This document shows, piece by piece, positions 26,218 to 64,000 of a stretch of 64,000 nt of DNA (its first letter is position 1; each line of letters starts with the position of its first letter). The notes below the pieces were generated by a model. The model was not told the DNA's origin, ran no database searches, and saw only the letters and a list, made by a program, of their open reading frames with translations. Made by a program: the position numbers and the translations under genes. The stretch comes from Lanius collurio (Eukaryota; Chordata; Aves; Passeriformes; Laniidae): contig JACBWW010000002.1 in the NCBI GenBank assembly GCA_020086605.1, positions 24,663,679 through 24,727,678 on the forward strand, read 5' to 3'.

Positions 26218-26236
26218 CTTTTTTTTTTTTTTTTAC
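26218..26236. repeat. poly-T tract
   Basis: A run of about 17 T in the intron between the exons at 25364 and 29475. Confidence 0.85.
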
Positions 26237-33104: not shown

Positions 33105-33215
33105 CAAACTGGAGTTTTTTCATGACAGCCACATACTTCTCTTCAAGGGATCGTAAAACAGACAAAGGCTTGGGCTTCACAGCAGCCTTTTTGGAGTATT
33201 CAGCCATCTTCTTTT
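33105..33215 (-). CDS. BIRC6: BIRC6 coding exon, seventh from the 3' end (start of UBC region)
   Basis: This 111-bp exon has acceptor tataacag and donor TTTG|gtaggt. It encodes the end of a split Glu codon, then KKMAEYSKKAAVKPKPLSVL and RSLEEKYVAVMKKLQF, and the first base of a split Asp (residues 120-157 of the part seen here). The SLEEKYVAVMKKLQF segment leads into the N-terminal helix of the E2 domain. An acceptor four bases downstream would break the frame. The one used here restores GAA and KKMAEYS, in agreement with the known protein. Confidence 0.94.
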
Positions 33216-34037: not shown

Positions 34038-34183
34038 CTTGGTTTGCTTGGCGCAGACTGGTGGTTGCAGCATAAACAATCTCTGCAGTCTTTTGGATGT
34101 CTGGCACCAGGAGGGTCAGTCCCTCTGGTTCTTGATCAGAAGTATCTGGTTTTACTCCTGCTTTAGCTTTGTCTTTTTTAGAC
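34038..34183 (-). CDS. BIRC6: BIRC6 coding exon, eighth from the 3' end
   Basis: This 146-bp exon starts after a cacacag acceptor and ends CAAG before gtaagac. It encodes SKKDKAKAGVKPD, then SDQEPEGLTLLVPDIQ, then KTAEIVYAATTSLRQANQ (residues 72-119 of the part seen here). The second half matches vertebrate BIRC6 essentially exactly; the lysine-rich first part is more variable. It lies just N-terminal of the UBC fold and looks like a helical linker. Its incoming phase completes the Arg codon of the preceding exon, and its final G opens a Glu codon finished by the next one. Confidence 0.95.
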
Positions 34184-37100
34184 CTGTGTGGGGCAAAGAA
34201 GGAGGATACAACATGAGGGAATATTTTTCAACCAGACATACAGTATCTAGTGCATTTGTCAACAGGGGAAAATACCAAAGACAGAGGATCAAGACAAAAC
34301 CAAGCCTTCTGAAATGGAATCTGTCGCTCTGTACCTTCAGGTTCATCACTGAATGCAGCAATCAGCAGTTCCAGCACTGAACATGCTATGCTGCCTTGGT
34401 TTCACAGACAGATGGACGGCTGGTATGAGCAGTGAAAGTATGAAAACAAAGCCAGCAATTCCAGTAGAGCAGTTTCTGCTTCAACCTTTCAGGCCACCTC
34501 ATTGTCACCCTGCAGGCTGACCTGGTGTCTGCACACCTTGCAAAATCAAGCTAACAAAGATCATGTCATGAATATGCATTTCATCCTTGCAGACCACTGT
34601 GCAAAACTAAGTTGTAAACAGGTGATAAAGTACTCCTTCCTGCTATACAATACTGAAGATATATTAATGGTAGAACTCAAGGAAACCTCCAGTAAAAATT
34701 CACAGCACACAGATGAACATCAACCCAGGCACCACAGGACTGTGGGTCAAACATGAAGTTTTGTCTCTCTTTGCAGTTCTTTTCTGAGCTATACAAATGT
34801 AGACCTTCTATTTCAATAAAGAGTTTAATGTAACAGTGTTAAAAGTCTTAAAATATAAAAAGCATCTAGGTTACACTGGATGTTTATAATTGAAGTATTG
34901 CAAATCAAAATGTCAATTTAAACACTTCAAATTTTTCTTATGGCATTTTTTGAAAATACAGTGCATACTAACACTGCTGTTTGACAGAAACTAGTTGGCT
35001 AGTAATCTAAGACATATTTAAATCTTTAAATTGTGACAATCCAGTCCTTACTAGCATAGATAGTCAACTGCTGAAATGAGGACAAGGGTATTTGACACTA
35101 ATGTAACCTGCATGTGTCTATTTAAAAGCTTCTGTGTTTCAAGAGCTACCATAAATGTACACTGTCATCCTGCAAATCTTAGGAGATTTTAATGCCAACA
35201 GCACCCAAATTATTTTACAATTTCTATGCATTTTTGTTTCAACAGCACTTGTTTCTTTTGAGACCCAAAAAGTTCAACAGCCAAGATGAAGTGGCTTTCT
35301 CTTTCTCACTAGCCTACCTAGAAGCAAGCCAAGAAACTACATGAGTAAAAATAGCTATTTGATGTTTTGATATAGCAAACATATTTTACCAACTATAATC
35401 TTTCTGTGTTTTAATCTAGACTGAAATAGTGCATAATGAATGACTCTCTAAACTCTTCAGTAGAGGCGATTACTGAATATGGTCTCTGAACTGTACCTAA
35501 TCAAATGAGAATATCCCTAGAGAGCATTAATAACAAAATACATTACTGTAGCATGGTCCATTTTCCCTGCTCCAGATTTAATCCAAAAGGATGTTAGCCC
35601 ATTGCAGACTTCAAGCTATTCTGAGCTTTCAGAGCCTCAAAATTAGGAGGAATCAGAGGCATCAGAACCAGCCCCAGGTCGCATTTGAGGAACACTGTAT
35701 GACAAAAAAGCAGCAACTGCATCTCTTGTTCATAATTTCCAATCCTTATTATTGCATTTTCCCTTGTGGAAAGCTATGCCAATATTTTTTGAAGCACCTA
35801 CTAACCACCTTCAAAAATATATATTTAAACCTACCAAACCTCAGTGATAACTGGTTTTAACATCATGCATTTGCCAGCAGCTACCAGTCCCTAGAAAGGT
35901 ACAAGATTTAGATCTGCCTGCTATTGATGCAGAAGCCTTAAGCTATTTGCTACAAAAGCCTTGGAGAAATTCTGGCTGAAGTAAAATGTCAGTGGGCATT
36001 ATGTAAGAGAAAGATGTGTGAAAAGCAATAAAAATGTGCTTAGTGAAGGTACTGAAAATAAAACTAATTCTTACAAATTAATTTTCAAAACACTGTTCTT
36101 GTGGCTCTTTTATCTTCCACTTGTGCTTTTACAATTCAGACTACCTGTTTGGTTTTCTTCCTTCTACTTGGTCTAAGAATCAAAAAAATCAAGATGTTGA
36201 CCTCATTAAGCAGAATGCTTCACCACATGCTTAAAAACTTCTACAGAGTTACTGACAGCAACTACCTCAGTAGACAAGGAATATACACCTAGTTGAAGCA
36301 GTAGGGAAAGGATATATCTACTCAAATGCAAACTTTCAGTACCAATAATATAATTTCCTCTTGTTCTCCCTCTACAACAGTTACACTTCACACTTTTGAC
36401 CTGTCAAAGGAGAATGTTTTCTCCAAACATCTCCGGTGCCACCAAGGAAAGGCGATTCTGTCCACTGCAATCATGAGCACAACAGAAAAGCCCTGCCCCG
36501 CCTCTCCTCAGAACACACTTCTGAAATCACGTGTTTGCAGAACAGCTCTACCCTGACAACTGTAGTTATCTGGGGCTTGTGTGAGGGTCTCCACTATGAA
36601 GCTGCCTAACTTCTGAGTCAGGCCATACCTGTGGAAGAGCAGTTTAGTGTTGCAGTGAGGGGAATCCCACAACAATATATATGACGACTATGGGGTTGGA
36701 AGGACGGATGAAGCAGTATTTTTGTAGATGTTCAAGGATGATTTTATTTCTCCAACCTCATGGCCAGAGTTCCCGAGCAGACTCTCGACCTTCTCCCCAC
36801 CCCCAGCTCCCAGGCACCCAAACCACCCAATCAGCAACAGATATGGGGCACACGTGACCTGGGGACAGGGACAAGGATCCACCTCCACAGATTAGGACGC
36901 AAAATGCAGGAATAAATCTAATGCAGCCACACCTCTGCTCCATCCGAGTCTCATTTTTGACCTTGATTCTGCCTAGTCATGGATTTCAGTCAATTTCTTA
37001 AGGAGGGTAAGATAGCTGGTACACAAATTCCCAAAATTAGACATACTGCCTTATCAACATTTAGCTTCCTCACACAAGTCTTGCTTGTATATTCCAATGG

Positions 37101-42247: not shown

Positions 42248-42288
42248 ATACAGTTTAAATGAAGGACAGGGCTGATGAAAGTGCTTAC

Positions 42289-42499
42289 CTCAGCCGGTTG
42301 GTATAGGTATCTACACAGGTCTTCATTTTAGCCAACAAGGTCCCAACAGAAGCCTGTGACTCCAACTGCTCTTCCTCCTCTTCGCTGCTTTCTCCTGACA
42401 GAGGAAGAAGTAACGGCACCATCGATGTGCAGGATGCAATAGCACGGAGCAATTCCAGCAGAGCTCGGTACAGGGGAACGTGTCGAGCCATATCCAAAA
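42289..42499 (-). CDS. BIRC6: BIRC6 coding exon, ninth from the 3' end
   Basis: This is the most upstream BIRC6 exon visible. BIRC6 is a giant membrane-associated inhibitor-of-apoptosis protein that combines a BIR domain with a C-terminal E2/E3 ubiquitin-conjugating domain. The exon begins with two bases of a split codon (G|TT, Val) after a cttag acceptor. It then reads LDMARHVPLYRALLELLRAI, followed by an acidic stretch (SEEEEEQ) and TCVDTYTNRL, and ends AG before gtaagc. The first part matches vertebrate BIRC6 just N-terminal of the UBC region, as remembered. The acidic stretch is the most variable part. The phase-2 junction restores Arg with the next exon. Length is 211 bp, residues 1-71 of the 475-residue part encoded here. 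An LTR ends about 41 bp past its donor. Confidence 0.95.
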
Positions 42500-43894
42500 C
42501 TAAGAGAGACAAACAGTTTACACATATTACTAAAACTGGGGACCCTTTCACTCTTAGTACAGATGTTTTAAAGAGAAAAGTTAGATTTTGGTAATTATTA
42601 AAATACTAATGAAATGAAATTACAAAATACAGTATTTCGTAATAGCGATTTTTAATTTGTGTTGTAATGGACTAGTATATATATAAAGAAATTTACAAGA
42701 TACCTGGAAAACAAAGGTTAACAAAAGACAAGAGGACAAAAGTGCTAACAAGGTATGGAACAGGATTACCACATGCTATATTCATTTCCAGTACTTAATA
42801 TACAATCCTGGCTCACATTGTATGCTGACAGTATCACAAACAAAAATTCATGGCATAAAAATTGCAACCTATGGCATAGCAGAGTAGCATTTGCTGAATC
42901 TAACAGCATAAGCAGTAATAAAGACTTTCACATCATCCACTTTATTTACAGTCTTCTCCTCCTTTGGGAAAATTCGTCTGCATTATTGCAAGAATATTTA
43001 TGGTCCTTAAAGGAAGGAAATTAAGTCATCTACTCAGTAGAAAAGTAGTTTTACTTCTTTTCATGAAGGAAGTATTGTTTTAAAAACCATTATGCATCCT
43101 TCAGAGCATGCAAATTTTACCTGCATACATATGAACCACAAAACAGTAAAGACAAGTAAGAACATATATTAGGCAGGCAAACCTCACTGTCTTAGTGCTT
43201 TTCAGTGTGATGTTACAGAAGTAACTGTGGGTAGAGTACAGGTGTCAGCTCCTCTGATTAGGAAAGACAGGCAGAGATACACAACTCTAATGGATTCTCT
43301 AGCACCACAATGTTTATTTTTCTTCTCCACTTGTTTGGACAAATATGTAATGGATGTCATTTCAGCTGACTTTGTATCATTAATAGAAATCCTGAAAATG
43401 TAGCAATAGGCAGATAGTTTAACACAGCTGCTTCCTCTGTCCCTAGGACATGCTATTTTTAACATAACTACAGAAAATATTTGCTTTAAAGAATTCACAA
43501 ATGACTGAGTTTATGGTAAAATAAATTTATTCTTTTTTCCAGCAAAAAAACCCAGACAACAAAAAGCTCCTGACAACTCACATTAGGACAGAACAAAGCA
43601 CAGAAGAACTCTTTAATGTTTCATTTAGCAAATCTCATCCTCCAAGCTAAAGCAGATCACAAACTTTCAACTCCTGTCACCAAACCTTTAGCTCTAAATA
43701 CAGCATGACAGGACAGTATAAACAGCCAAGCTAAACTCAACAAGCCAGTTTATGCAGGGTTTAAGGCTGGATTTATCTCTGCCAGGAGTTTTTTGATCAA
43801 TACCTTACTATTTGTCTTTTGAATCTATTACAATGGCACAAACCCTTAACTGGGTGAAGTGCTGTTGAACAGGAAGAAAATTTACCAGTACCAA

Positions 43895-43994
43895 NNNNNN
43901 NNNNNNNNNNNNNNNNNNNNNNNNNNNNNNNNNNNNNNNNNNNNNNNNNNNNNNNNNNNNNNNNNNNNNNNNNNNNNNNNNNNNNNNNNNNNNN
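43895..43994. other. assembly gap (100 N)
   Basis: Exactly 100 ambiguous bases, the usual placeholder for a gap of unknown size. It is followed by a short TA repeat (from about 43997) and, at 44075-44130, by A-rich low-complexity sequence. Apparent reading frames across it are artefacts. Confidence 0.99.
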
Positions 43995-44074
43995 AATACA
44001 TATATATATAAACAATGGCTGCCCACAAAAAAATCCTCACAATGTGTAAAAATAGATCTGATGATGTGTGCATT

Positions 44075-44130
44075 TAAAAAAAAAACACACCAAAAAAGAA
44101 AAAAAAAAAAAAGGAAAGAAAGAAAGAAGA
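44075..44130. repeat. A-rich and GAAA low-complexity tract beside the gap
   Basis: A-rich sequence with gaaagaaagaaag units just after the assembly gap, likely part of the reason the assembly broke. Confidence 0.85.
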
Positions 44131-47100
44131 ATAGATAAGGAGGGTGGTGAAAGAAAGGGCAAGCACAAAATATTATCATAGTGTAGTCCTGGCCAGAAAC
44201 CACCTCCCACCTTTAGTGCTGAAGACCAAGTGGCTCCTCAATTTAATCAATAGCTGTTTATTATGAGGATAATGAGTGAGGGAGAGATAAGACCTCTTAG
44301 ATAACCACAGCATTTCACTCTGGAAGGCTTTTATTTATTTATTTAAACTATGAAATTTTCATGAGACCAGAATATATAATTTCAAATCCCTCAATGCTGG
44401 CTTGCCCTCTTTGCTACATGGATAGTTAAGTTCAAAATTACCATTGTGAAGGGAACTGAACTGACATAACTTTAAAGTGGGAATGTTTTCCAGAGAGATG
44501 GAAGAGATTTCTGGTTTTAGCAGATCCAACTCAATTGCACTGCTTTGCAACAGCTCTCCTGTGAAACGAAATGCATTCACTTGGCTTCGATTTAAACAAC
44601 CTTTTAGGGAACAACTACTAATTTCTTTTACCTTAATGCCAGACTCCATGAAACTCAATTTTTGGTACAATTATGTGTCTTATGCTATTTTTCTTCTTTA
44701 TTATACCTACTAAGAATTGTGACTTGTGCAAGTTTATTTTTTCTGTCAAAAATTCCTGAACTCCCTTCCATCCCCAATCTAAATCCTCAAAATGTTCATC
44801 AAGACTGAATACCTAGATAAATATCAGAAAAACTTGCTGTAAATGACTCAAAATTGGCAAATTACTGTTTATTATCTTCACCTGGCAGTTCACCTACTTC
44901 TCGTGCCTACTTTGCTTTCAACTGAAAGAATGCCAAGCTGATTTACAGTGTATGCTTCCTGCAGATACAGCCCTTCTTTCTGAAAGAGGTGAAGAAGACT
45001 TGAGCAGTTTGTTGAGCTCTACGTCATTTTTCAGACACTGTGTTTAAGCTGCTAGGATAACAAGACAATCCTTTGTAAATTAGACCCCTGGCCCATAACC
45101 ACTCTTTGCTAACCTGTCCACCTCCCTCTGGCATGACCAGCTGCACCTACAGATGGCCTAACAGCAATTTTCTGCACTGAGACAGGCTTACAAAGTCCAA
45201 TAGCATTCCAAGTAGAACCTCAGTGTTCAGGCTGTGCCACTCACATTCCATCACCATCCTTACTGCTTTTAGTGTTTGCAGCATATTTAGTTGAGATTTA
45301 GGAAATATGTCTTTCCTTTAGATAGCATTATACACTTATCTGGGGACAGTATTTCAGAAATATAAATGACACAGGTTTGTAATAAAAAAAAGAATTTGAT
45401 CCTGTAAAAAAGTCCTTTAAGGGAATTGAACTGAAATACTACAAACATGAATTAAAACATAAAATACAAAACTGCAAATTAAAAAAAAAACTATTTCCTC
45501 CAAATAGAAGCAATAGAACTTTTGGACAACTATCCTCACATAAAGATAGCTGGCCAACTAAGATACCAACAATTTTGATTTCAAGCAAATATAAACTTCA
45601 GTGAAGAACAAGTGTTAAAAGTAAACCACTGTATTCTTCAAAGTATGCTCTCCCTTGGGAATATATCCAACTTTTTTTGTCTGACTCAACTGAACAATGA
45701 AGGTGTATCATAACACTTTACCTGAATTAAATATGATAGCTCCTCTTGTAAGAAAAAAAATCCAACACACCACAAGACAGAAACAAATACTTCTGCTTAT
45801 ACAAGACCTACAATTTGAATACCATTAGCACATATTTAATAAGCCAGAATATTTTTGTATGGGTACTTCAGTTGTGTAAGAAGGCACCAACAGCCTTTGA
45901 TTTATATGGGCATGCACGTAAGCGCACCAAACTGCAAATACATAGCACTCCTAAGAAAATGAAAATGGGAGATTAAAATTCTTGGCCTTGTAAAAATGAC
46001 AGATGTGTATATTATCCAGGATTCTCTGTTATCCCAAAGACAAAACAGTTACTAGGTAGTGACAGATACCTTTTACAAAGAGCTCAGTTTGGGGCTCTCA
46101 GGCTCCCGCACGGAGTACACTCGGACCACCCTGGCCATCAGGCTCCCACCAGCTGTAGGGTCTGTCACATCTCTCCATTTTTGTGCTGTTGGCGCTCCCT
46201 GATTCTGTGGCTCAGTGAAGTGCTAAAGAATGTCCAGCTCCCAGCATCACAGACCAGTTCAGAAGCTCCCCCTTGTTGGCTCTCAAACAGAACTGCTACC
46301 CCAGAGAGTCCCCCTGAACTTCTGCTGGGTTTCCCGAGCACTTCTTCAAATGATTACTGTATGATACATACGTACATCAAAAGTGGAGATTAAATTATTT
46401 CATTTCTAGACTCAAGGCAGGGATTTGCACTCAGGTTTTATCCTGCTTCCTTGTCTGCCTTAACCAGGGCTGTCAGGATAGGTCTGCCTGGTGACAACAG
46501 TGGTGCTTGAGAGAATGCTCCAAAACCAGAGGTGGGAACCGGCTTCTGCACCACCTGACCACAGCTGCTTCCCCCACAGCCTCCCATGTGTTTCTCCACT
46601 TGCACTGAGTAAATACACATCAAGGTCGCACCTTTTGGCTATACCAGCAGTTAACTACTTAAACCAGCAGAGCATGAAGCAGAGCACAGGTTGAAAACTG
46701 CAGCTGAACCTGGAGCATGAGCAGGCAGCTGCAGGACAACCACCACAGCCCCTCACCAGGCCCGGAGACAGCTGTGACAGCCCAGGGTCACAGGGCAGGG
46801 CAGGAGGTGACAGAACAGCAGGGCAACAGCACCATGGGAGTGAAGGCCAGATGATGGCAGCAGTGCTCTTAAAGGCTGGAATACCAGAGGTACCACACAC
46901 AACTGTTGACAGTAGCATCCTTATTACCACCGTTGTTTTATCAATTAAGCAATTACGAGTAGACATGTCCAAAAACCACATCCATGTCTCACTGTCCCTG
47001 ATGATTAGCAGAGGCAACAGGCAGCATATGTATTTGCTCACAATTCACATCAAAAAAGTATCTCAGGTCTAAATTTATTCTGTTGCAGTTATGGAAAGCA

Positions 47101-50100
47101 GAAATCTCAAGAAGGTCACTGTCATTTGGTAAGATAGGTAAGGGATGGCAAACATCTGGAAAATCTTATCTGGGTATAAGGTCTCACCTTACTTTTCCCA
47201 ATCCTTTTGGTAATAAAGGTCAAGTGTTACTGGAATCACTAAAATTCAGCTAGTCTCTTGCCACAATACTTGCAATTTAGAAAGATGCTGAATGAGGCTC
47301 AATAGGTAAAAAAATAGATTTCATAAAACTAAAATCTTCCTTATATGCTAATAACAATCAGTCTGATTTGGGTGGAAGGAAAAGGAGTATGACTGAAATT
47401 GCATAAAAAAGTCTTAAGTTCCACAAACTGCTGAGCATCCTGTCTTTCGAAAACTGCAGTCCTTCATCTACCTAAATATCATGGGATATTATGTCATTTT
47501 TAGAACTTTTAATCTATGCCTTATTCCTGGGAAGCAATCGATTAACATTTAAAGAGCATGTGTGATTTCAGAACATTTCAATTGCTTTCCACAAATCTAT
47601 TTGTTCATCACTAATATAGATCTATTTCTTACAAATATCTAAGGCTATCCATATGCAATTACAACCTTAATATAATGAAAAAGCACATGAGGGCAAGTAG
47701 TTTCACAGGATCAAGGTATCACCTTTAATTTCACCTATATTTGTAGCTAGATAATGACCCAACTGAGTCTAATATTACTTTGCTTTCTTTTAATATTATA
47801 CAATGCTCAAACAAAGAATAGCCAGGCCTAATGGCCCATTAAATAGACAGTACTGAACAGCAATAAATTTTTTTTGCAATTGATTTAACATCCTCAGTTC
47901 AACTTAACTGGCTATGAATAAGATTATTTCCATTGCCAAGGATATTTAAAACATCACAAAGAATACGCACATTTATTCTAAAATGAAGCAAACTATTAAT
48001 ATAGTATGTCCATTATATCAAAAAATCTTTACACTTTACAGCAAATTAAAGAAAAAATAGAGAAGAGTGATTTGTAAGAAAATGATGAAAAGTTCTGATT
48101 TACTTGCATCTAATGTCAAGGCTTTCCCCACTGTGACTGTACTAGGAATTCCTACCCCAAAGAAGCCTACAAACTTGATGTAAAAAAACTCCAAAACATT
48201 CACTTGAAGAAAAATAAAAAAATCAACACCTTTATCAGTTTTACAACCATGACACTTGCTTCTGTGCTCTGAGAAAAGCTGCCTATATATGCTCTCAATC
48301 TTTCTCCTGTATGTAACTTCACAATTTCTGCACTCATTATTTAAGGATCTAGTGAATTTCAGTTATTTTAAAGGCCCACAGAAGTATGACTATTTTTCTT
48401 CTGCACAATCTTGTTTTACTTCTGACCAATTCACATGACTGATGTTCTGCCTTTGTTGAAGGAAAGAAGGTTGTTCTGGCAGCCACATCAGAAACTGGAA
48501 ACTCTTCCAAAATTCAGTCCTTTCATTGCTTTTCTCAAAGAGATCTGCCACTGCAAATATGAGAGAGATGATCATGAATGATCAATTAAAAGGAAGAAGG
48601 TGAAAAGAAAAACGTGTTCTGGAGAGAACCCATATGTAAATCCAGGAAATGTAAGGGAGGCCTCCTTCTTGCATGGGGTGAAGTTTCCAGTGATGCAAGA
48701 GATGCCTCCAAATCTCATTTCTTGTTTTGTTTTGGATCTATTTCAGAACGATGTTTTATCTTCCTGGAAAGAGGAATGATTGTGTTTTGTAAAAATACTC
48801 ATTCTGAAGTAGCCATCTAATCCTGCTTCTGTTTTAAGCAATGTGAAAGAAAACCACTGACAGTTAATGAAGAGTAACTGCATTATAAAACTGTTCTATT
48901 TGTATCATGTAAAAATGCTCAAAATTTACTACAGGGTATTCAAATCTCCCCTGTAAAAACCCCAAGAAAATACCTATGTATTGCAAGTGACCTATTTTTT
49001 CTTTCATAGTAATTAAGTTTTAAAGATATGGGATCATCGGCTTAAGTAACAAGTAAAATAAGACATTCTCATTACAATGCTACTCCCTAAAGTTTAAGGC
49101 CAATGTTAGGATCACGACTACAGTACCACATTCACCTGGCTCTAAATTTTTCTTTATTATTTTATTTCATTCTTTTTAACTTCCAAATAAATTAAAAGTA
49201 AGATCCTGAAGTACTGCCAATTTTACACCATTCTTAAAACATGCTTAGTAATTACTGAGGACATTTTTTTATGCCTCAGTATGTTATTCACAAACCTAAA
49301 ACCCATAGCTATGATCAAATTAAAGACTTCAGGATCTCATTATCATATTAAAGACTCTCAGCTGCTATGAACACCACTGTTCAAAAAAAATAAAAAAAAC
49401 CCACACAAAGTAAACACTCATTTTGTATTTTTAATTAAAACCTTCAGAAGACACAGTCTTGTGGCCACATATACTGCCAAGTATGAGTAAGGCACTCTGT
49501 CTTTCCAACAGGGCCACGCATCCTTTTACTAAATATTTTAAAACTGGAGCTGTTCTTCAGCCCCCCTTCGCTGCATCTTTGCAAACATATGATGTATGAA
49601 TGCAGTCCCTGCTGCAGGCAATAGTGTCGGTTCCAAATACGTCATGCTCCACTGCCTCTTGATTTTCTGTTTCAGAATCAACCCAGGGCAAGCCTCTTTT
49701 ATAATAGGCCTAATTAACACACTGTGTTCTGCTCTGCTTTGATAGAAAAAGAGATTGCCCACAAAGCAGTTCAAAATCAGATCTCTAAGAAAACATTAGC
49801 CTTTAGGTAAAAATGAAACAAAAGCTTTCCAAATATTGTCATCTTATAATAATTTAATTAGCTTGACTTTTTCTGTCAATTTTTAAAATTGGAGTAACAC
49901 TAGCATTTTCACAGTACTGTTTTCAATATTAGGGAAAATGACATCAGGAGGGACCAGTTCCCTGAATAATGAAGCAGGGAGAATGGGGTTAAGCACTCTT
50001 GCAGGTCATGAGTCACAAAGCCCATGTCAGAGCAGTGAAACAGTACAAGAAGGGTGGGCCTCCGGATTTAATGGGTACAGTGTCATGCTCCAAATTATTA

Positions 50101-51767
50101 CTATTATTGTTCAGATACAGCTTGAAAATTTTGTTCTTCTGATGTCAGCACTGAGCCTATGAGCAGACAAAAAAATCAGATCACACATTAGAAAAGCTGA
50201 AGACAAATTAGAAATTAATTATTGAGGCTGCATTCAGTAATTAGTATCACTTCAACACCATGTGCATTTCCCCCTTTTATCAGATAGATGAGACAGACCT
50301 GGAAAAGAGAGAGAAGGGTGACTAAACAGCGCAAGATACAGAATGAATTGCTGCACTATCTAAAATGAAATAAAGACATTGCAGCCTCAGTGACTAATGA
50401 AGGGTACCATAAAGACACTGCTTTTAAATTATCAGTGCCAAAAAAGTGAGTAGAATTGGACTGATCAATACATTCAAAGGAATGGGCACACCATCAGAAG
50501 AAATAGTGTCATTTGTACAAGAATATACACTACACAATATATCACTTTTAAGGTTTGGAAAAGCGTAGCACTAAATGCCAGGGTAGTAAATATTATCACA
50601 GGTTCAAAAGTAATTGGCTAAATTGATGTAAGAACAGGCCATCAAGGGCTAATAAATGAGGGGACACCACCCTTGGCAACATACTAGCAATACCAAAGCA
50701 GCATCTGCATGCCAGCCTCTGCTATTGTCCACCATTGGTGATAAAGTAGCAGGCTAAGAACCGTGGTTTGTCTTGGCATTAGTATTACTGTGTGTTCTAG
50801 GAAACTTGGAAAAAAAAAACTAACTGCAACAGGAAAGGAAAATTGTGCTCAATTATACAGGCAAAATGCATTGCTCAGGGAAGTTGGTCAGCCATCTGTA
50901 GCGTACTAATGTGGCTCAAAACTACTACTCAACCATTTCTGCTTTGCCTGTTTTTTAAAGAATATTTGATTTTGGTGAAATTGAGTATTTTCAGGAAAGT
51001 TCTGTTTACAAGTCAAGTCAAACAACACTTTTCACTCATGTATCCATGAATCCAGAAAAAACCCTTTGCCAGAAAAAGTGCAAGGCTTTATTTTATTAGG
51101 CCAATGTGTACAGTTGAATAAGCAAGACACAATTTCCTGCATTTGAAAGGCTGGGAGAAAGAAACCCAAACAGTACAAAAGACATGAAAACCAAACTGAG
51201 CTTTTAAAGCTTAAGTGACTACTAAAATCATGCATGATCCCCAGTTTTGAAGATATTACTATTTAATGGCACACTCTGGTCCCTCATAATGGAATCCATA
51301 AGGGATCACTCTTTGCCATGAAACAGAGCTCCAAATAAACCTGAAAAGGAAGTCAGGTAACAGAGAGATTCTTCCTGGAGGCTACAGAGCAGTCTTATAT
51401 GGGGGGTTGGGAATACATCAACAGAAAGAATAATTAATGAAATCTAAAAAGGCAAAATTGTGTATTCATTGGTTTTGTTTGATTGAAAAAATGTCCCAGT
51501 GCAGAAAGGCTGGGAGCAAAGTACTGAAGAGTAAGTACATACTGCCATGGGGTCCAACCTCACTGCAACTTTTAATAATCCCTCCTCTGAAAGAAAGCTG
51601 GATTTACCCATTACCAGTTCTTAAACCCATCAAAATATGAAAGAACTCAAAGCATAAAGCTCTAACCAAAACACACTTGCATCAAAATCTAGAGAACAGG
51701 TGTAAGGAAGCATCAATGCTCTAGGAACATTCTATATTACCAAATATATAAAGAATAATACAGAGAA

Positions 51768-51830
51768 AGGCATAAATAAAATAAAAAATAATTTAAAAAA
51801 TATATAAAAAATGTGAAGAAAGACACATAT
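51768..51830. repeat. AT-rich low-complexity tract
   Basis: Mixed aataaa and tatataaa units; simple sequence inside the large intron. Confidence 0.75.
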
Positions 51831-54800
51831 AAAGAAAGGAATTCAGACACTGCACGAGGATAAGTTGTTTGCCTGGTCAAGGGATGAAAAAAACCTTATT
51901 ATTAATACAACCCTTTAGTATGGCATTTAATAAGATAGAAAGGACCAATGATTTCTATTTCAGGTCAATGTACTGAAATAAATCTAATAATAAAGGTAAG
52001 CTAGAAGTGTCATATTACCTTACACTCAGGAAAATAAGAAAAATTTTTCTGCAGAGAATATTGCAAGGTTTAAACATCCTGCACACCAACCCTTTCTGAA
52101 AAAAGTAAAAATAAATTCAAAATAAATAAGAAGGTGGAAGCTTGCCTATCATCTCATGTTAAGTGTCTTACGCATGCAGCACTACACAGAGATAAAAGGA
52201 AAGGTATCACTACCTTCAGAATGTGGATCAGAATTTTTATAAAAGTTAATCTTTCACCATCCCTGCAATGGAGAAGGGAACAGTGATTTCACTATTTTTG
52301 GCAGAAGAGTGGGCAAGCAGCCACCTTGAAATGGTCTTCAGTCTGAGTGTTACCTCTTCCAGGCCATAAAACAGTCACTAGTATTTTAGAATAAGATGGG
52401 AATCAAAAATAAGATGGGAACCTGCCATTTCATTGCACATGCTGCAGAAATAGATGCAGAAATTCAAAATTAGATAATGAAGTTGTGGAGTGTTTTAAAC
52501 CATTACTTCAGCAGATGGAAAAAGGCCAAGACTCGGGCATTCTGCTCAGTCAGCAGAGGATACCAACACTGTTACTGGAATGGATGTTCGATTCCTGTGC
52601 TTTATTTTTTCTGTATGTGTGAAAACACCTACAAGATCATGTCCTCAGGGGACAGAAATGAGACTATTTAAGCATCTCATTCTGCATTAACTATCTAATT
52701 ATTTCGCTTGGCCAAGACCGGCAGAGTTGCTGTACGTATGCAAAACAGAACTTTCATCACTCCAGTGTATTTTTCAGAGAATAGTTTGTTGTTTAAGTAC
52801 CAAGACGGGCTTTCAGTAAACACACGAAGTGCAGGCTGAAAAGAAAAATTATAGCTGAACAGCTTCCTTGAGTCTGAGTTAAATGAAGGGTAACCCTTTG
52901 TATTGTCTGCATATTCAAAGTGCCTTAGAGTGCAAATAGCTCTTATGCGGTAAATATATCAACCAAATTAATAATATGATTGGAAGCATCATCTCTAAAA
53001 CTTGTAGAATAGGAGAATTTGCTCTTTCCACACAACTTCATGCAAGTTCCTGCACAGCTTATTAAAACAGATCATCACCCATTATGTTACAGCAGAACAA
53101 CAAAAAAATAACTCAAAATAAAATACAATTTTCTTTTTTTAATGAGCTGCATTATCTCCATGTCCTCTAGAGAGGACAAGAAGATACAAATACCATAATA
53201 AAAAACTATTGCATTGCAGTAATTTACCATAGACTACTTCTTTCAACCACAGAGATCCATTTTCTTGGATTTGTAGTCAGGACTAAGAATACCCTCAGAG
53301 GATAGTAAGAAAGGAAGTACTGTGAATGGGAAGTGTCTGCATAACAATATGGGAAGTGCCAGATACATTTACAGTATTTTATTTTCAAAAACGGGAGAGG
53401 AAAAAAAAACCACAAAAGAAATAAATGACAAATGAGGTTGTTATTGCCCAGAAAATGAAAGCCTATCACTTGACTAAATAAATAAGACTTTCAACTGCTG
53501 AAGATGAAACCCAGCCCTCACCTCTGTAAGTTTCTTCAAATGCACATTGAGCTACACACCCCAAAACTCTTCCCTGAAAGTACAGTGAGCTTGCTCTTAG
53601 GAAAAGCAAAGCAAAAATGTCCAAGACAAGCCCTGGCAATCTGCTCTGCATATAAACAGATTGTTAGTTTCTTTAGTCAGGAATTTTCTAGCAGCTTATC
53701 TAATTGTGCTGCCAGTACTTGAGAAAGCCACTAATATAAAGAAACAAAAAACTGATTATGTATTACTTACAGTTCTTCCAGAGGTCTCTTGTGTACTGTA
53801 AAACATTTGTGTCTTGTTAGTGGTTACTGTATCTTAGCAGGAAGGCACAAGAGTTAAAAAAAAAGGAAGAAAGCACACTGGACATTTCTGCTGTATAATA
53901 TGGAACTGTAGGAACATTCTCCTCTGAAGTCATATTCTCTTTTCAAAAAAGACTGAGTGTGTTGGTAATGAGGCATCATTTTTACAATTAATTCTTAATG
54001 CCTCTAGTAAAATCTGTGAGTGTTTGTAGCATGTGGCACTGCAGAGCAATCTATTTCAGGCATCCAGCATGCATATTCCCAACCATAATTACCAAGACTA
54101 AATGAAACCGCTTGAGATGTACTGTCTGACTAAAGCAAAATACGAAAAAATTATAGGACTGGTAATATTTATACTGGAAATTTTGAAAAATGCAGTGTGG
54201 TACCTTTAGGTTTAAAGGGCTGGTTGAATGCCTTTACTGCTCACCCTCAGAGAGGAAGCCAATCTAGTACTTACAGACTCCCAGTCTGGTCCTGTGAGCA
54301 GGGATACAGCTACCAATGTTGGCTTTCAGTTGATGAGGGGAAAAAGGGAACTCCTGGGTGAAAAGCTCGTGGGCCTTAGCAATAAGGTAAATGGTCCAGG
54401 AAAGCCTAAGGATGGGTTCCCTCAACACTAAACTTTACTGCCTCATACCTTGAACAGTCGGGGCAGTGGCTTGCACTGTTTTCTCAAAATTAAACAGCCA
54501 TCACAAGATGGTGACAGTCTATTGGCAGAGGGAATTTCACTGAACACTCATGGCCAAACCCAAACACTTTTGAAGACCATGACCCACACCTTTTATTTCT
54601 GAAGTGAACAGTTAAAAGTAAGCATACAGAAACTAATTTCAGGAATGAAATGAACACCAGCTGCATCTCATATATGATTTGTTAGCTTCTATACATCCTC
54701 ATATCAAGGATCAGCATCTAACTGTATTTCTCCTGAAAGCTTATTAAGAAAGATAACTCATCTGTGGGAGGCAGGAAGGCAAACACCATAGTTTAGTTTC

Positions 54801-56771
54801 CTTTTACATAAGACATATTATGCAGTGAAGTGCAAGGCATAAAGGTCTGTCAAAAAAGTATATCTCTGCTTAGTACCAGAAGTTATGTCTGAGTGGATCC
54901 AAAGGGGAATAATAAAAAAATAACAGGTCCTTGGCAGTCAGATACAGATACATGAGCAGTCTGTTGCTCAAGCTTTCAAGACAGTCATATTATCCTGTAA
55001 CCACGAAGGTCCAGAAATTCATAGTGGTCTCAGATGAGGAAGAAATCTTGTTTACTTAGGTCTTCAGGACTGTCCTGTAAAGCACCTTCAGAAGCTTAGT
55101 CATCAATTGGAAAAACTTCTGTTATTTAAGGCTCATAATAACAAACTGATAGACAAAAAACCCACCTGACTCATGACCCCAGAGTAAAATACTCTATCAT
55201 TTAGGTAGCAGGACGAAGAATACATGGGTGAGAAGCACAAGGAAGAACACCATGAAATGTGAAAAGTCCCACTGAAAGCTCGTCTTTACCCTTCCTATTT
55301 CTCACCTGACATTTCTTGAGTATTTTAACCAGGAAAATCCTTTCCTTCTGGAAAATTTAATAGGCACTTTAATTCACTATGATTAAGTGAGTGGGGCCAG
55401 AGGTCACAAGCTAGTCTGAGGTATGCTCTGTACTCGCAGCTGCAAAATATACCACCAGCTATATAAATCAATGAAGATCCAACAGTTCATGAATTTATGT
55501 TCAAATGCCATATAAAACAACGTGCAGTATAGAAACAGATAAAGACTGAAGCAAAGATCCAGTCTCTCAGTGAACTTTGCTAAATAGCAATTTATTGGAA
55601 AAAAATACCTCCAATTAGCTTCTTGTAGCAAGCTGCAGTCTTGAAAAGACTAAGTGCTTTATATGTCACACAGTCCAGTACCCAATTACAACCCAAATCT
55701 AAGCTGCTTCGTTCCTTGTAACAACTAGGTTTTTAATTTTCAAAGGTTTCAATGACATGATGTTTCAACACATAATTACTCTTTATAAATTACAACAAAT
55801 TTCTGCAACACAGTAGAGCTGAAAGCACAAATTTATACTTTTTCTTTCATAAATCTTTTATCTTATTAACCAGTCACACAGATAATCAGTTTTGACATTT
55901 AAAAAAATTCTGTTATAGTTTTAATCCAAAAGCAGAATCTACTAGAAAATAGTCTGCTACTTTAAATGCTTTGAAAATACAAGCATATATTCATAGGCTT
56001 TTTGCAATAGGAAATAAGAGCTTTTGTAGGCTAATATTTTCATCCTCTTATTCCAAAACTATTTCCAAATAAAGATGACAAAACAGAGGAAAGAAACATA
56101 TAAAAAGATGCTGGGTTCGCAGTAACCTCTAGGTTTGTTTTATTTTTCAAGATCAGTCATCTGAAAACTCAGACAGACAAGATGAGCTCTTTCTCAGATG
56201 GTAAGATGCTTTAAGGACTTTGGAGAAAGAAGAAGTTGGTGTAGTACTGCAGTTCCCCGAGAGCCACCCTCCTGGACTACAGTCACCACTCTGCTTCCCC
56301 TGTGCTTGCCCAGAAAGGACTCACTCACTCTAACACAACAAAATTTATGAAGATGAGAACTCAAAAAACTGATACTTGAAAGCCCTAATACTCCTACAGA
56401 AGAATGAAGCCTACACTCAAACCAGTATGAAAAAATAGACCCCAAAACCAGTTGTCTTTGATTAAAAAAACCCTCTTGAGCTGCAGAGAACAGCACTGAA
56501 TCTGAACTGAAGCATTCTAAAAGCTACTGAACACTTTATATAAAAAGGTACAATATCCCTACAAGAGATTCTTTTTGATATAAGAAGAGAAAAATGAAGA
56601 TTGCCCAGTGTCAGAAGGTAACCACACACAGCTGGGGCTGAAATCCTCACCTCTAACTCAGGAATATTAATCAGTCACCAACCTCTAAATTGCTTCAGTA
56701 CATGAAGACAGTGATTTAAATACTTCTCTCCGAACAAATATGTGACATGTCACGTGACTTCTTCCAAAGGC

Positions 56772-56831
56772 TTTTTCTAAACTTTTACTCAAAGAAAAGT
56801 TTAGAAAAGTTTTTTCTAAACCTTTACTCAA
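56772..56831. repeat. short direct repeat with internal inverted copy
   Basis: The motif tttttctaaacttttactca recurs 39 bp later as tttttctaaacctttactca. Between them lies gtttagaaaa, the inverse of ttttctaaac. It looks like a local duplication able to fold. Confidence 0.8.
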
Positions 56832-58837
56832 TTGTCAAACTTAGCACTTTTCTTGACAAAACAGCAGAGTCCATTCTGACCATGATCACAGGAACTGAAC
56901 TTGAGCAGTACCAAGAGAAGCTGGTGTTGAAAGGGGTGGGGCAGAAGAACCGGTACTATTTCATATCTGTTTAACTGACTTCTTAACACAAAACTACTTC
57001 AGAGCAAGTGGCAGAGAATGGGACAAGAAAATTTTTGCTAAGCGAAAGCTGGGAGGTGGGAACTGACTAGAGAAACTTCTGTAGGTACTTACGAGAGAGT
57101 TCTGAATTTTTCCAAGGATAATTTGGGTCAGCAACTAATTCACAAAATCAGGAAAACCCTCAGACAACAGCCAAAAGACAATGAAGTTCTTCAGACAGAA
57201 GGAAAAAAAGATGAAATGTCAAATCATCAAGTAAGTGCTAAGCTGAAATATATAGAAGAGTCATGAAAGAGAATAGTTAGAAAGCTAAAAATAACTTGTG
57301 TTGCTTCAGATGGAGGATCTGAGACCTTCCTCTTTTTTCACCAGATGAGTAAAAAAATACTTTGAAACCTGGCCATGCCTATCACTGCTGACTCAAGGGC
57401 ATCACACATCAATCTGTATCACAAAAAATAGGCTAACAGCACTCACAAAGAAAACAGTATCAGAAGAGAGAAAAAAAAGAAATAAAAAACTGAAGGAGAA
57501 GGAATGTGGCTATCCACTTCTTGCTTATGCTAAGACAGCCAGTTCATCTTAATTCGTGCATACTATTGCATCTCCCAAGAGACACAGCTTTGCTCTATTG
57601 TTCTGCAATTTAACTGAAAAACCATCAGACCTCATAAAGGGAAGTTTCTGGAGGTTGTTTGAGAAGAAAACTAGAATGCATCACCTACACGATACATGTG
57701 CTACCTCATTTCACACAATTTTCTGCATCTTGGGGGAAATTCAGAACAACTACAAGGGAAAACAGTCTTCATGGACAACTGATCTTTTGGATTTCATGAC
57801 AGCATTTTAACATAAACAGACTTTTAAGTCTAGACACTATCTGACTCAAAACATCTGTTTTAATGAAAAAATACAGCATATAGAATAATTTCAGTGTACA
57901 CAAAAATCAAAATTATATTAATTCATAAAAATACATGAGGAAAGATAAAACATACACTTAAGACAACTTGCTCCTTATGCAGTTTTGATGCTCTGGGTGT
58001 AACACATTACTCGTAGTGGTAGCGTATAGCAGGATAATGATCATCGCAGCACCAGGACTGTAAATTGTTGAATTTATACCACTGAGTTTTTACAAGATAG
58101 CTTGGCAACTTCCCCTGAAGTATGACTATCTTTAAAACATGACATACATTTGTATTGCCTAAGGTCTATTCCCATGCAATAGAAGACTTCAGTGGTAATG
58201 AACAGAGTGACCTCTAATCAACCAAATTTGTCCTGCTCTCAGAATACCACATAAATCAGTTACTGAGGAGTTGCCAAAGTCTTACTAAGTGCTTGAAAGC
58301 TCTTCCTAGATGGAACAGAATTAAATTTAGGATGATTTTGGATACCAGTGTTCAAACTCCAAATACTATATAACCATGTAATCGTCACCCCAAAACAGGT
58401 GGGTTTATTACTGGCATGTATAAAATGTACTCCCAGGTTCTTAACGTTATTTTACACAAAATGTAAAGTATCTCCCCATCTTTCCAAATATCATCAAGTA
58501 TTATGGATACGTCAAGGCCTTTTCAAATCAACCTTTATTATTCACTTCACTCATGTGAGAAATCTTGCAAGAAATTTTCTCTTCACACTGGAGATGCATT
58601 GTAGCTATAAGGAAGTTATTTGTAAATGCCAGATTCCACCCAACACGGATGAATGCCTTGAGTTTCCTATAACTGACAAATGTTAAGTCAGACAACCTAT
58701 GTTTTTTCCAAACAGCAACTCTTTGCACCACTGACAGCTTAAGCAGCTACTTCCCCATCCTTTTTACTGTGTTGTGCTAGAGATTTATTTTTGTCTGGGT
58801 CTGTTTCCCAAACCCATTCATGACATGTCCACACAGA

Positions 58838-59002
58838 CACGCATATCGATGCAATGGCAGGACGTCAGGGAGAAACGCCGTCAGGCCATGGCAAACACTG
58901 CATCTGAATCGCGGTGCGCAGGAGGCATCTCTGCCCCTCACCTGCCTGCAAAGGGAGTACAGACAGATTTGTTTCCTGGGGTTCACCATGGCCACTGACG
59001 TG
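58838..59002. promoter_or_regulatory. CpG-rich patch with CRE-like half-sites
   Basis: Eight CpG dinucleotides fall within about 80 bp (58840-58919) in an otherwise CpG-depleted intron. ACGTCA (58862-58867) and TGACGTG (58996-59002) resemble cAMP-response-element half-sites. It sits about 2.4 kb upstream of the candidate first exon of the TUNAR-like gene, so an enhancer or upstream promoter is conceivable. Confidence 0.3.
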
Positions 59003-61293
59003 CCAGTTGCATCACAATTATAAAAACAGCAGACCACTACACGACCTCAACCACAGCAATAACCAAGCCAAGAAATGTTTTGGGATTTTTTTGCTGCTCT
59101 CTGTGGGTACATCGTAATTAGCTGGTTACTTGCAGTGGAGCTGCAAATGTATCATTAATCTTTAAATAAAATATGCACATTGCACAATTTCCCCCTTTCA
59201 CAAAGGAAAGGGTTTGATTTTGAACATGTGAGAGTTAATACAGTACAGTGGCTTGAAAATTCTATTATTGCTAGGTGCTCTCAGCAATGAGAATGGTCAG
59301 AATACACAGGTGAAAATTCCCCCATCTTTGTATCTCTGAATGCATCTAAATGAATACAGAAATACATTCAAGATACACAGACACAAAACAATTCCAAGAA
59401 CAACTGATGATGCAGCAGCCTGTTCAGAACAAGGGAAGAGCTTGAAAAGAAATACCACATATACATATAAGAATATATATTTAAGGAAGCTATGCTGGAG
59501 ACATTTAACCTAATTAGTTATATCTTCTAGAGTCAAGCAATTTCATTGAGGCAACATAACTTTTGGGATAAAGGGGAAATCATGTACAAGTACCATACAA
59601 CTCACAGTACTTCAAACATGGTATTTACCATTAAAATAATGCACATGCGAAATAGGCAATTTTGTCTATTACTAAGAAACTAACAAATGTACTTAGACAC
59701 TTTGGAAAAATAATGAGAAAAAATGCAATGCAAATTAAGTTGCAAATGGTAGAATTCAAAACAATGATTTTACTGTCTTCTGCTTTCTCTATAAAAGATG
59801 ATTCAACACTAAATTTCAAACAATGCCTTGTAATTCCTAAAATATGATGTTCTGAAAAATGATTAAGGTTTCCACTTGTTTGAACTCAATTTAATTAATT
59901 GCATTTTGATTTTTCATACACATGTACAGAAATACATTTTTGTACATTTGAATTCTGAATTGCTTGACATTGGCAAATATTTTTTACAAGACAAGTTTTC
60001 TGATATTTTTAAAATACAGCTGCATTCATAGCAAGAAGCTATGCTACACCAATGAAAACACATTGCATTGGTAGCCTTCATAGATCAAAGTGACTGAATA
60101 ACATTATTTGAAATACAGCTCCTTCCAGAGGTTATTAAAATTGTGTGCTTTTTTTTTTAATCTGAAGAGACTGGGAGGAGAAGACTTTGCAGAGTTCTCC
60201 CCCCTTTCCAACTGGGCAGGAAAAAATTGCCTCTGATTTAAGCAGGAAAAAAATTGTGTTGATGCTTCCTATGAAATCAGAACAGGATTATTTTTAAGTG
60301 TTTTCATTAATTATATGGTAACCTGCATTCTTTGGGTGGTGAATAAAAGAGGAAAAGCATTTATTTCCCATAGAAACAACTGCCTGTCAAACAAAGCATA
60401 AAAAGACAAAAGGCAGAAACACTGTTTCAGCTTGAATGCCTTAATGCCACCATTTGTCATGCAGCACTTCCTCAGAAAACCCCGAAGTACAGTTAACTCT
60501 GCTCCTCTTTACACTGCACACTTTCTCCGTTGGTACAGGATTAAAATGTGCCCGGCCTGACGATGAAACAGCAGAGCCATCGCACATTGTTATGCAACTC
60601 ACTGTCTGCAAGGGTGGCTCGTAGCTCCTTCTTTATTCAGCAAGTGCCAAGTGCATGTTTAATCAATGTCACAGCTCACCACAGTGTGCAACTAAAGCCA
60701 CTGTCATTCCTCTCTTCAGATTTGCCTGGCTGAGTTATGCAATGCTCTGAAGAATACCTTGGAATTCTTTCCAGAGGGTCTGAATGCAGGTGTGTGACAG
60801 CGTTCACACTACTGCCAGCAAAGCAGACCTCTTTTCTTCCTTTTTCAGGCTGGACTAAAATTACATAGTGTGACTGCACGTAGTTCGCTGCATTTGGAAT
60901 TACAGCATGTCAACGTAAGAAAGCCTCTTCAGACGGCTGCCACAAAGAGTAAATCAAAGGCTGGGTGTTTCTGAAGTCCTAATAAATAAGTATAACTGAA
61001 CAAAACCAGGAGCCGTTTGTATTTTTTTTTTTTAAGACAGAACAGCATGCATCTCGTTGCTCTGCATCATCTAAGGAAAAGAAGCCTCAATTTTAATGAC
61101 AATTAGTCAACAGTGAGGATCATTATGAGAAGGAGCTTTACTGTTTTTTCAACTATACTTGCTTTAGTGGATTACTGAGAAAGAACACCAAGATTCTGCA
61201 ACATCATTATCCTCTCCGATAAACTTCTTCATCAAGAAACTGTTCGTGCTCCTATCTGGTCTGTCTGAGAGAGGAGAGCAGCCCCTTCATGAA

Positions 61294-61303
61294 GATAAAA
61301 GCC
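61294..61303 (+). promoter_or_regulatory. candidate TATA-like element for the TUNAR-like gene
   Basis: GATAAAAGCC lies about 70 bp upstream of a strong donor site (AGG|gtaaga at 61371). The spacing would suit transcription starting near 61325 and a very short first exon. No CpG island is present. This is suggestive only. Confidence 0.3.
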
Positions 61304-61324
61304 TGGCTTGCCACTGAACCGACG

Positions 61325-61370
61325 AGCAAGAAGCATGTCTGATGACATTTTATTCCTGATGCAATGTAGG
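61325..61370 (+). other. candidate first exon of the TUNAR-like gene
   Basis: The segment ends at a strong donor (AGG|gtaagaaata). An ATG at 61335 opens 12 codons (MSDDILFLMQCR) that end exactly at the donor. Joined to the exon at 62499, the frame continues without a stop through 13 more codons to the TUNAR-like Met. This would allow a 75-residue form. The 50-residue form matches the family length better, so this exon may be mainly 5'UTR. Confidence 0.35.
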
Positions 61371-62498
61371 GTAAGAAATACCTTTTTTTTTTAAACCTTT
61401 CTGTAAGATATGCTCTGAGCTGATGATATTAATTAGACTTACAGCAGAAATACGTTAATCTCTAATGATTAAAGCCATTTGCCAGGAGAGAAAGATGCTA
61501 TTGCACTATAAAATGTGACTGTATATCTTCAGTAAATTGGAGTGATCTGAACTAGTAGAAATCCCCATCAAATTTCTGATCAATAAAGCTAAAACAGCAT
61601 AGCAGATCATTCAAGATCAACATACAAGATCAAGATCTCAGTCACTAATGGACATAATTTTACAGGGAATATGTTTCTAGAGGATATTTGACTGTAAATT
61701 AAGAATACAAGAGCAGCTAAGTAATAGAAAACGACCTGTCAACCTCACTTTCGCAACCAAAAAAAGGTAACAAATCATACATACATCTGTAAATGTCTAC
61801 TTGAATTCTTATATTACATAGAATGTTGCTATTAAAAAAGTACTACCATCCTGTGGCATACTGCAATAATCAACATACAGAACAACCACCTTTACATTTG
61901 AAGAGACAGACATTTTCTGTTAAATGTTTACTGTTGCATGGATGTCCAAAAGCTGATCTATTAAACATGAAAAAGGATAAGATCTCACTTGCAATTGCCT
62001 CCTTGGGGCTCACTGGTGAAAAACAACTGCGATACCGTATTTAGGAAGCATATTTCCCATGTTTGAAAACAGCAGGCATCAATATTTTCAACTGTTTTTG
62101 TAGTGTGGCAGTGAAATACTTAAGAAAAGCTGAAAATGCATATAACCTCCCCAGGCATTTCAGAGTATTTGACAATGCTCAAATACCTGCTTTCACCAGG
62201 TTCATCTTTTATAAGGAAACAAATTAGCCCACTAAAGATAAATTTTAAATGTCTTTTGTAATAAAGCATATTAACTGGCTTGAAGCACCAAACTGTTTTT
62301 CACTCCTATCAATCTGTACCTACAGAATGTTTATTTTTAACATGAACATGTTCATACAAATAGAAAACAAAAGATGAATACAACTCAATAAATATAGCAT
62401 TAAGAAATATTGTATGAAGAGCTACAGAACTGTTTTTAAAAAGATCAAGGCTTGCATGTTTGTCAGACCAGATTTACCATTTGCTTTCTTTTTTCTAG

Positions 62499-62741
62499 CT
62501 AGCTGCCAGAATACTGGTGAAGGTATTTGCAGGAAAAATGGGGACCTCTGCCATCACAACACTGGAAGATGTAAAAAGACAAGAGGAGAAAGAAGAAAAA
62601 GAAGAATCTATTTTAGCACTGCTTGGGATTATTGGAACTGTGCTCAATTTATTTGTTATTGTTTTTGTGTACATCTACACTACACTTTGATGACATTTTT
62701 GAGTATCAATTGTACAGAACAAAGTGCAAAGACCTGCAATG
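62499..62741 (+). other. predicted exon carrying the TUNAR-like ORF
   Basis: The exon is bounded by a pyrimidine-rich acceptor (tttgctttcttttttctag, ending 62498) and a consensus-like donor (AATG|gtaaga at 62742). It holds 39 nt before the ATG, the 153-nt ORF, and 51 nt after the stop. The donor after the stop implies at least one further 3'UTR exon. An alternative acceptor four bases downstream (ag at 62501-62502) cannot be excluded. Confidence 0.65.
62538..62690 (+). CDS. TUNAR-like single-pass membrane microprotein (50 aa)
   Basis: An intact 50-codon ORF with a strong start context (A at -3, G at +4). Residues 1-24 are polar and highly charged (MGTSAITTLEDVKRQ, then EEKEEKEES). Residues 25-47 form one hydrophobic helix (ILALLGIIGTVLNLFVIVFV), and the protein ends YIYTTL. 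Human TUNAR/BNLN, as remembered, is 48 residues with the same layout and an almost identical last half (KEES, LGIIGT, LNL, VYIYTTL). The differences here are conservative (Ile/Val, Met/Leu, Ile/Phe). TUNAR is an ER membrane peptide reported to bind SERCA2 and tune calcium in beta cells and neurons; a similar role here is inference. The in-frame TAG at 62496-62498 lies in the presumed splice acceptor, so 62538 is the only start within this exon. It lies antisense within the BIRC6 locus. It may be a TUNAR paralogue or a relocated TUNAR. Confidence 0.85.
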   Translation: MGTSAITTLEDVKRQEEKEEKEESILALLGIIGTVLNLFVIVFVYIYTTL

Positions 62742-64000
62742 GTAAGAACGATTTCTAAATTTAAAGCAAAAAACCCACCACTCTCTGAAAAGAGTATCAG
62801 AAACATTCCAGAGTGAAGTGTCAGGCTAAGGGTGCTGCATCAATGACTGCAAAGTGCATCTATGAGCCTAGCTAGGGTGCTAAATTACATAAATGAAAGC
62901 AGGCACTATACAACTTCTCATTGGTACCAGATGAAATCTGAATAGCAGGATCAGAGATAGCACTGTTTTATTGCCAGCAAACAAGCAAGACAGAAATGTA
63001 GGCAAACACTGAAAATAATCAGAACATAGAAGGAGATGAACTAAATATATAAGTAACTATAAGCAAGTTCCATGCTTCCTATGGTTTTGTGCAGTATATC
63101 TCTTCATAGCTGAGACCAGAAAACAGGCAAAAGGGGTTTTTATTTTTAGGCCACCATAATTTAGGCTTATAATTTACACTAATGTATAATAAGTGTGGAA
63201 ACAGGAACACTTATACTAGAAGTTGTAATATTATAAATAAAATTTTAACTACTGACTATATTCTACAGCATTTTTGTTAGTCTTGTGGAAAGCTGAAAAA
63301 GGTTAATTTTCTTGCCTTTACTAAATCTGTATTTGAAATCATCATGCTATACTGACAATGTGCTTTTCTAATTAAAAATACTTTAAAGTGATGTGAAAAA
63401 ATAAAGAATAATTCAGTACTTCTTATAAGACATATTAATAATTCAATGACACACTAATATATATTCTCTAAATGAAAAAAATCTTAAATTACATTTTCTA
63501 TATCATCATTTTTAGAAGGTGTTTACCAGAAGCCAAATACAATTCTCATGTTTTCATCCTGATGCTTCTTTTTAAGTAAAACATATCATGTAAGGATTCA
63601 CAGTGTACCATGAAAAACAGGTCTAACCTTTGTCCAGAAGACTGTACTCTCCCCTTCTGGACCAGGACCTGAAGATATTTTCCCTTTCTGCACTATGATT
63701 GAGGACCAGAATTGCAACTCCTAAGCATACTTCATGGAACATGCAATTTGGCTACTGAAATTAGTGAAATTATATCCACATTTTAAAACAAATCTACATA
63801 TGCCTTTAAACTAGATCCAAAGCTGCAGACAGTCTGAGACCATACAAGTTTTTGTATACATGAATGTATCTCACATGTACCTCATAAGGAAAATTACTTT
63901 TGAGATCTTAGGATTAAAAACTCATTAAATAAATAACATGAAAAAAGTAAAAAGAAACTGATTTTAATAAATACTTTTCTTACTATTAGATGTGCCACAG
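62742..64000. other. sequence after the TUNAR-like exon
   Basis: AT-rich sequence, presumably both an intron of the TUNAR-like transcript (plus) and of BIRC6 (minus). No further exon or repeat was recognised before the window ends. Confidence 0.5.

Follow-up and report, generated by a model that had tools for sequence, protein, structure and literature searches.

The antisense gene and its host gene BIRC6

The DNA analysed here is a stretch of 64,000 nucleotides from the red-backed shrike Lanius collurio (contig JACBWW010000002.1), hereafter the window. Its minus strand carries exons of BIRC6, for which we use the residue numbering of the 4859-residue chain 8atm_A. Residues 4799-4858, 4539-4613 and 4450-4504 were matched at 20886-21062, 31689-31913 and 34033-34197, respectively, and Pfam places the ubiquitin-conjugating domain within 30768-31001; the exons in 20886..34197 thus reach residue 4858 of 4859. 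Another exon at 42288..42499 (the match stretch runs to 42503) encodes residues 4383-4454, and the next upstream exon, residues 4325-4383, was found just outside the window in DNA fetched beyond it. Because these two exons meet at residue 4383 (donor CTCAG/GTAATG; acceptor CTCTTAG/TTTTGGAT), the gene explained below lies antisense within one intron of 28104 bases, which extends over 42500-70603 in window numbering and occupies 42500..64000 of the window. With BIRC6 exons on the minus strand at either side, the opposite-strand position in a large BIRC6 intron, presumed in an earlier note made from the letters alone, is confirmed. The region from 44 to 64 kb was checked by eye for an extra BIRC6 exon, which is unlikely given the junction at residue 4383. 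The host intron also contains an assembly gap, a run of 100 N at 43895-43994. Three long plus-strand open frames (17860-18504, 39826-40176 and 41595-42122) lie within introns of BIRC6 or next to exons of it; they have no Pfam family over the cut-off and are probably chance frames or repeats.

The core of the antisense gene is the plus-strand frame 62538..62690, whose product is MGTSAITTLEDVKRQEEKEEKEESILALLGIIGTVLNLFVIVFVYIYTTL, 50 residues followed by TGA. The earlier note had claimed an intact 50-codon frame with TUNAR-like architecture at this place, and both claims hold. The Pfam TUNAR profile PF21954 matched the 50-residue protein with E 3.4e-20 and 72.1 bits (cut-off 27), and the layout is that of the TUNAR family: a charged half with KEES (62538..62609, residues 26-49 of the longer form described below, net charge -4), followed by one hydrophobic helix and the C-terminal VYIYTTL (62610..62687, residues 50-75). 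The membrane helix is predicted from hydropathy, with a 19-residue peak of 2.74 at residues 50-68. When about 5.8 billion proteins were searched, 70 of the 71 candidates had E<=1, and all 70 carried a precomputed PF21954 assignment. According to our own sorting by the signature before EES, 60 of these homologues are of the KEE type, as is the window protein, and 10 of the KES type, which is that of TUNAR; seven of the 70 (P0001-P0007) have at least 96% identity over the core. The 153-base ORF had a single match in its own genome in a DNA search, a kind of search that can miss common words. No related PDB chain was found, the only match at E<=1 being cadherin-1 (E 0.24). The antisense gene is real and conserved and very likely protein-coding, and we are nearly certain that it is a paralogue of TUNAR with a protein product; most likely the paralogue is an ancient one, and we use the name TUNAR2 for it here.

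Although the 50 codons claimed by the earlier note are intact, they are only the 3' portion of a split, 75-codon frame, whose first coding exon had been missed. This exon lies at 61335..61370 on the plus strand (MSDDILFLMQCR, then the donor GTAAGA). A degenerate pattern made from relatives matched it with 0 mismatches as its 1 match in the window, with 0 matches in 100 shuffles, and a protein scan gave it a score of 63 versus 26 for the runner-up. A predicted GT...AG intron of 1128 bases follows at 61371..62498 (+), with donor GTAAGAAA and acceptor ATTTGCTTTCTTTTTTCTAG. The second coding exon, 62499..62690 (+), consists of LAARILVKVFAGK, the 50-residue core and TGA, and the thirteen codons from 62499 stand directly 3' of TTTTTTCTAG. 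Joining the twelve codons of 61335-61370 to 62499-62690 gives 75 residues and a stop. The homologue P0007 (75 residues; 9 members on 25 contigs, the longest of 4901 bases) starts with MSDDILFLMQCRLAARILVKVFAGK ahead of the common core, has the same exon junction already joined, and is identical to the joined window frame at 73 of 75 residues (25/25, 22/24 and 26/26 in the three parts). Because the two pieces are 1128 bases apart in the window, P0007 most likely derives from spliced RNA, which is indirect evidence of a plus-strand transcript, and we infer that the two exons are joined in Lanius collurio in the same manner.

Both ATGs have A at -3 and the internal one, at 62538, also has G at +4, so that it may serve as the start of a 50-residue form. 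The 75-residue form has an additional hydrophobic and basic N-terminal stretch, which may change the location or the partner of the protein. The long form has its best support in tetrapods, sturgeon and eels, since among the listed proteins many teleost members show nothing that can be recognised as the first exon. Two members of the TUNAR2 clade, P0186 and P0189, have Thr in place of the internal start Met (EKTGTSVITT), and only the longer form is possible for them.

TUNAR in the same genome and the age of the two clades

When the whole genome (1.097 Gb in 2132 contigs) was searched with the Pfam TUNAR profile, only two loci exceeded the cut-off: the BIRC6-antisense locus, with 70.5 bits, and C4:9279690-9279833(-) on another contig, C4. 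The latter, extended to C4:9279690-9279878(-), is TUNAR proper: over residues 12-74 it shares 97% identity with the TUNAR of the gull Rissa. The TUNAR protein query also had a third match, on contig C20, which was dismissed as chance (E 0.7, 30% identity). An exon of the poly(A)-polymerase family lies on C4 at 0.33 Mb from TUNAR, and PAPOLA is a neighbour of TUNAR in human; TUNAR of this genome is likely to be at its usual place. With a whole-genome duplication in mind as a possible origin of the pair, a PF04926 probe was run; it found matches on C4 near TUNAR, on C40 and on C42 and none on C2, these units being contigs and not chromosomes. The presence of TUNAR itself at a separate locus, which the earlier note had proposed to check, agrees with its view that the antisense gene is a paralogue at a different locus.

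The TUNAR exon on C4 starts after AG with GTT ATC CTG in phase 0, at the same alignment column as the start of exon 2 of TUNAR2, and the upstream part of the same pattern is found in TUNAR proteins of several species (...LLLMHC, ...LLMLCK). The first exon of TUNAR on C4 was not found in 20 kb (about 15 kb of it upstream), where the best score was 34 and no fitting donor was present. Isoforms of Anolis sagrei TUNAR all join at the intron position that corresponds to the start of exon 2 of TUNAR2. In these isoforms, four in number (P0080, P0141, P0144 and P0149), a shared exon follows first parts that differ from one another, so that alternative promoters or splicing may change the N-terminal part of this protein.

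A tree was constructed from the C-terminal 54 residues of 39 rows, i.e., the window protein and 38 of 203 fetched proteins, picked by us so that named taxa of the two types were represented, with 55 columns kept. TUNAR (20 rows) and a TUNAR2 clade (19 rows) came out on opposite sides of a branch with 100/100 support and a length of 1.16 changes per column. Of the 36 inner branches, 16 were open, and the rows of Paramormyrops, Boleophthalmus and Menidia were flagged as long. The TUNAR clade contains a snake, a lizard, a turtle, two birds, three mammals, frogs, sturgeon, gar and teleosts, and the TUNAR2 clade a snake, a newt, frogs, sturgeon, eels, other teleosts and two sharks. TUNAR2 is therefore not the TUNAR orthologue: it falls outside the TUNAR clade and is not the TUNAR gene of its genome. 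Because reptiles, amphibians and ray-finned fish occur in both clades, the duplication is most simply placed before the origin of bony vertebrates, and it is older than jawed vertebrates if the root lies between the two clades. Both types were found in one named species in Pituophis, Menidia menidia and Knipowitschia.

Mammals had the TUNAR type only, among the best 120 of 394 and the best 120 of 382 profile-search hits, and a copy of TUNAR2 that is unannotated or highly divergent is possible in mammals. Named cyprinid entries among the profile-search matches listed were of the TUNAR type. In the most likely history, TUNAR2 arose by duplication before the bony vertebrate split, kept its intron and was retained in many lineages outside mammals. 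We tentatively propose, as a reading that falls somewhat short of probable, that early jawed vertebrates had two TUNAR-type calcium-pump regulators, and that the BIRC6-antisense one has persisted in sharks, fish, amphibians, reptiles and birds but was lost in mammals.

Proposed function and competing readings

The product of TUNAR2 would be a single-pass microprotein of the endoplasmic reticulum, with its charged part toward the cytosol, the helix across the membrane and the C-terminus just past it. Through its helix the protein would contact a SERCA calcium pump and adjust the re-uptake of calcium, and our best guess is that it acts in the same kind of cells as TUNAR. According to excerpts of PMC8758570, TUNAR is located in the endoplasmic reticulum, co-precipitates with SERCA2 and, when overexpressed in neurons, makes calcium removal faster; another group reported TUNAR with SERCA3 and a reduced re-uptake in beta cells (excerpts of PMC8758570 and PMC12733331), and the reported effects thus go both ways. 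Because 21-23 of the 26 helix residues of TUNAR2 are identical to those of four TUNAR proteins, the same kind of action is the best guess, and we think it fairly probable that TUNAR2 works through SERCA.

The same comparison bears on the first alternative, which agrees that the gene is a coding member of the family and supposes that its main membrane partner is not SERCA but, for example, the plasma-membrane calcium pump, with the extra N-terminal stretch perhaps directing the protein to it. The charged half is divergent, only 9-12 of its 24 residues being identical to the four TUNAR proteins, and the helix has clade-specific letters. When 199 of the 203 proteins were sorted by a text pattern into 123 TUNAR and 76 TUNAR2-clade rows (the four outside the pattern, by eye two of each type, were left uncounted), VIVFVY or VVVFVY was found in 69 of 76 TUNAR2-clade rows versus 0 of 123 TUNAR rows, and VIIFVY in 7 of 76 versus 123 of 123. 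Owing to these differences, the partner or the sign of the effect may differ from those of TUNAR, and the plasma-membrane pump was left open by the TUNAR authors (PMC8758570). We nevertheless regard a non-SERCA partner as unlikely, because the helix so closely matches that of a protein whose reported partner is SERCA.

It is much less likely, and in our opinion quite improbable, that the locus works mainly through an RNA antisense to BIRC6, with an incidental or secondary reading frame. Such a reading is suggested by the position inside BIRC6 on the opposite strand and by the first description of the family as lincRNAs, TUNA and megamind, but the frame, its stop and its residues have been kept from sharks to birds, and no Rfam family was detected in 58000-64000. 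The earlier note had named a frame not conserved in other birds as refuting its claim, and in other vertebrates the frame is kept. Conservation differs along the protein. In ten relatives chosen by us, 20-26 of the 26 helix residues were identical versus 9-22 of 24 in the charged half, in line with the earlier note's contrast between a near-identical membrane half and a freer N-terminal half; the N-terminal 25 residues had 5-25 identities. A further point against the RNA reading is that, in three close relatives whose rows read through the TGA, 50/50, 50/50 and 49/50 residues matched before the stop, whereas the part after it was divergent and frame-shifted, with 15/23, 8/26 and 6/59 matches ungapped and 16/23, 19/26 and 23/59 gapped, a contrast drawn from three protein rows, which are few and whose tails are still related. 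Among the rows running past the conserved TGA are P0003, P0005, P0183 and other rows with TTLW, which is present in 22 of the 76 clade rows. The window, when read with table 4 past the TGA, gives the same WWHFW start as the tails of these relatives; we do not accept the longer tails as real protein, as the TGA was read as tryptophan, likely a gene-calling artefact.

That TUNAR2 is a functionless copy of TUNAR, either processed or recent, is the case that the earlier note had named against itself. It has a negligible chance, and a retrocopy is ruled out, because TUNAR2 has an intact frame with its own upstream exon and an intron at the place where TUNAR also has one, and groups in the old, 100/100 clade with fish and sharks.

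Comparison with known systems and naming of the second gene

TUNAR2 shares with TUNAR (pTUNAR, BNLN) the PF21954 domain, the charged half with KEES, the VYIYTTL end, the closely similar helix and the intron position. A longer form using an upstream exon is another common property, that of TUNAR having 65 residues (excerpt of PMC8758570). The two differ in locus and clade, in the charged half, which has KEEKEES and an EDVKRQE-type sequence in TUNAR2 versus QEKESKEES in TUNAR, and in the helix, where most rows of the TUNAR2 clade have VIVFVY instead of VIIFVY. The SERCA regulins (phospholamban, sarcolipin and myoregulin) and DWORF are likewise small single-pass microproteins of the endoplasmic reticulum that act on SERCA, an action that TUNAR2 would share; the mark of regulins is an xLFxxF motif (both according to excerpts of PMC8758570). 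LFxxF was found in 0 of 76 TUNAR2-clade rows and 3 of 123 TUNAR rows, and the wider LFxxxF in 69 of the 76; the missing LFxxF motif rules out membership of TUNAR2 in the regulins.

The zebrafish megamind requires a special comment. This RNA, linc-birc6, is named after birc6, and excerpts of PMC5300904, PMC6439142, PMC8758570 and PMC6347452 treat it and Tunar as one gene; no function was found in a megamind mutant, according to excerpts of PMC6347452 and PMC7155256. If linc-birc6, which we assume to lie antisense in birc6, is the positional twin of TUNAR2, the megamind-Tunar equation may be one between paralogues. However, the one Danio protein that we found (D. aesculapii, P0114) belongs to the TUNAR type and lies outside the TUNAR2 clade, and a review (excerpt of PMC6439142) gives a human-zebrafish similarity of >80% across about 200 bases, which fits TUNAR proper; these two points count against the paralogue reading of megamind.

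TUNAR, first filed as a non-coding RNA, has recently been recognised as regulating how neurons and beta cells handle calcium, and a second copy about as old as TUNAR means that many vertebrates have two. The two copies are a natural test of redundancy, and the orthology of megamind and Tunar becomes checkable; in addition, edits in the host BIRC6 intron could hit TUNAR2. If there were indeed two ancient regulators with a loss in mammals, human-based work would cover half of the system, studies of zebrafish linc-birc6 and mammalian Tunar might compare paralogues, and the absent phenotype of the megamind mutant might reflect cover by the second copy.

In the open-licence PMC literature, among the matches listed and as far as their excerpts go, we found no second TUNAR gene described. 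One paper from the bird literature on lncRNAs antisense to BIRC6 (PMC6123486) lists BIRC6 as a lncRNA target, with no intronic antisense gene described in its excerpt. TUNAR2 is already in databases under automatic names: members of the TUNAR2 clade from Pituophis, Bombina, Lissotriton, Anguilla and Cetorhinus carry the NCBI name "protein TUNAR-like". Because the listings use the label "TUNAR-like" for members of either clade, TUNAR2 needs a proper name.
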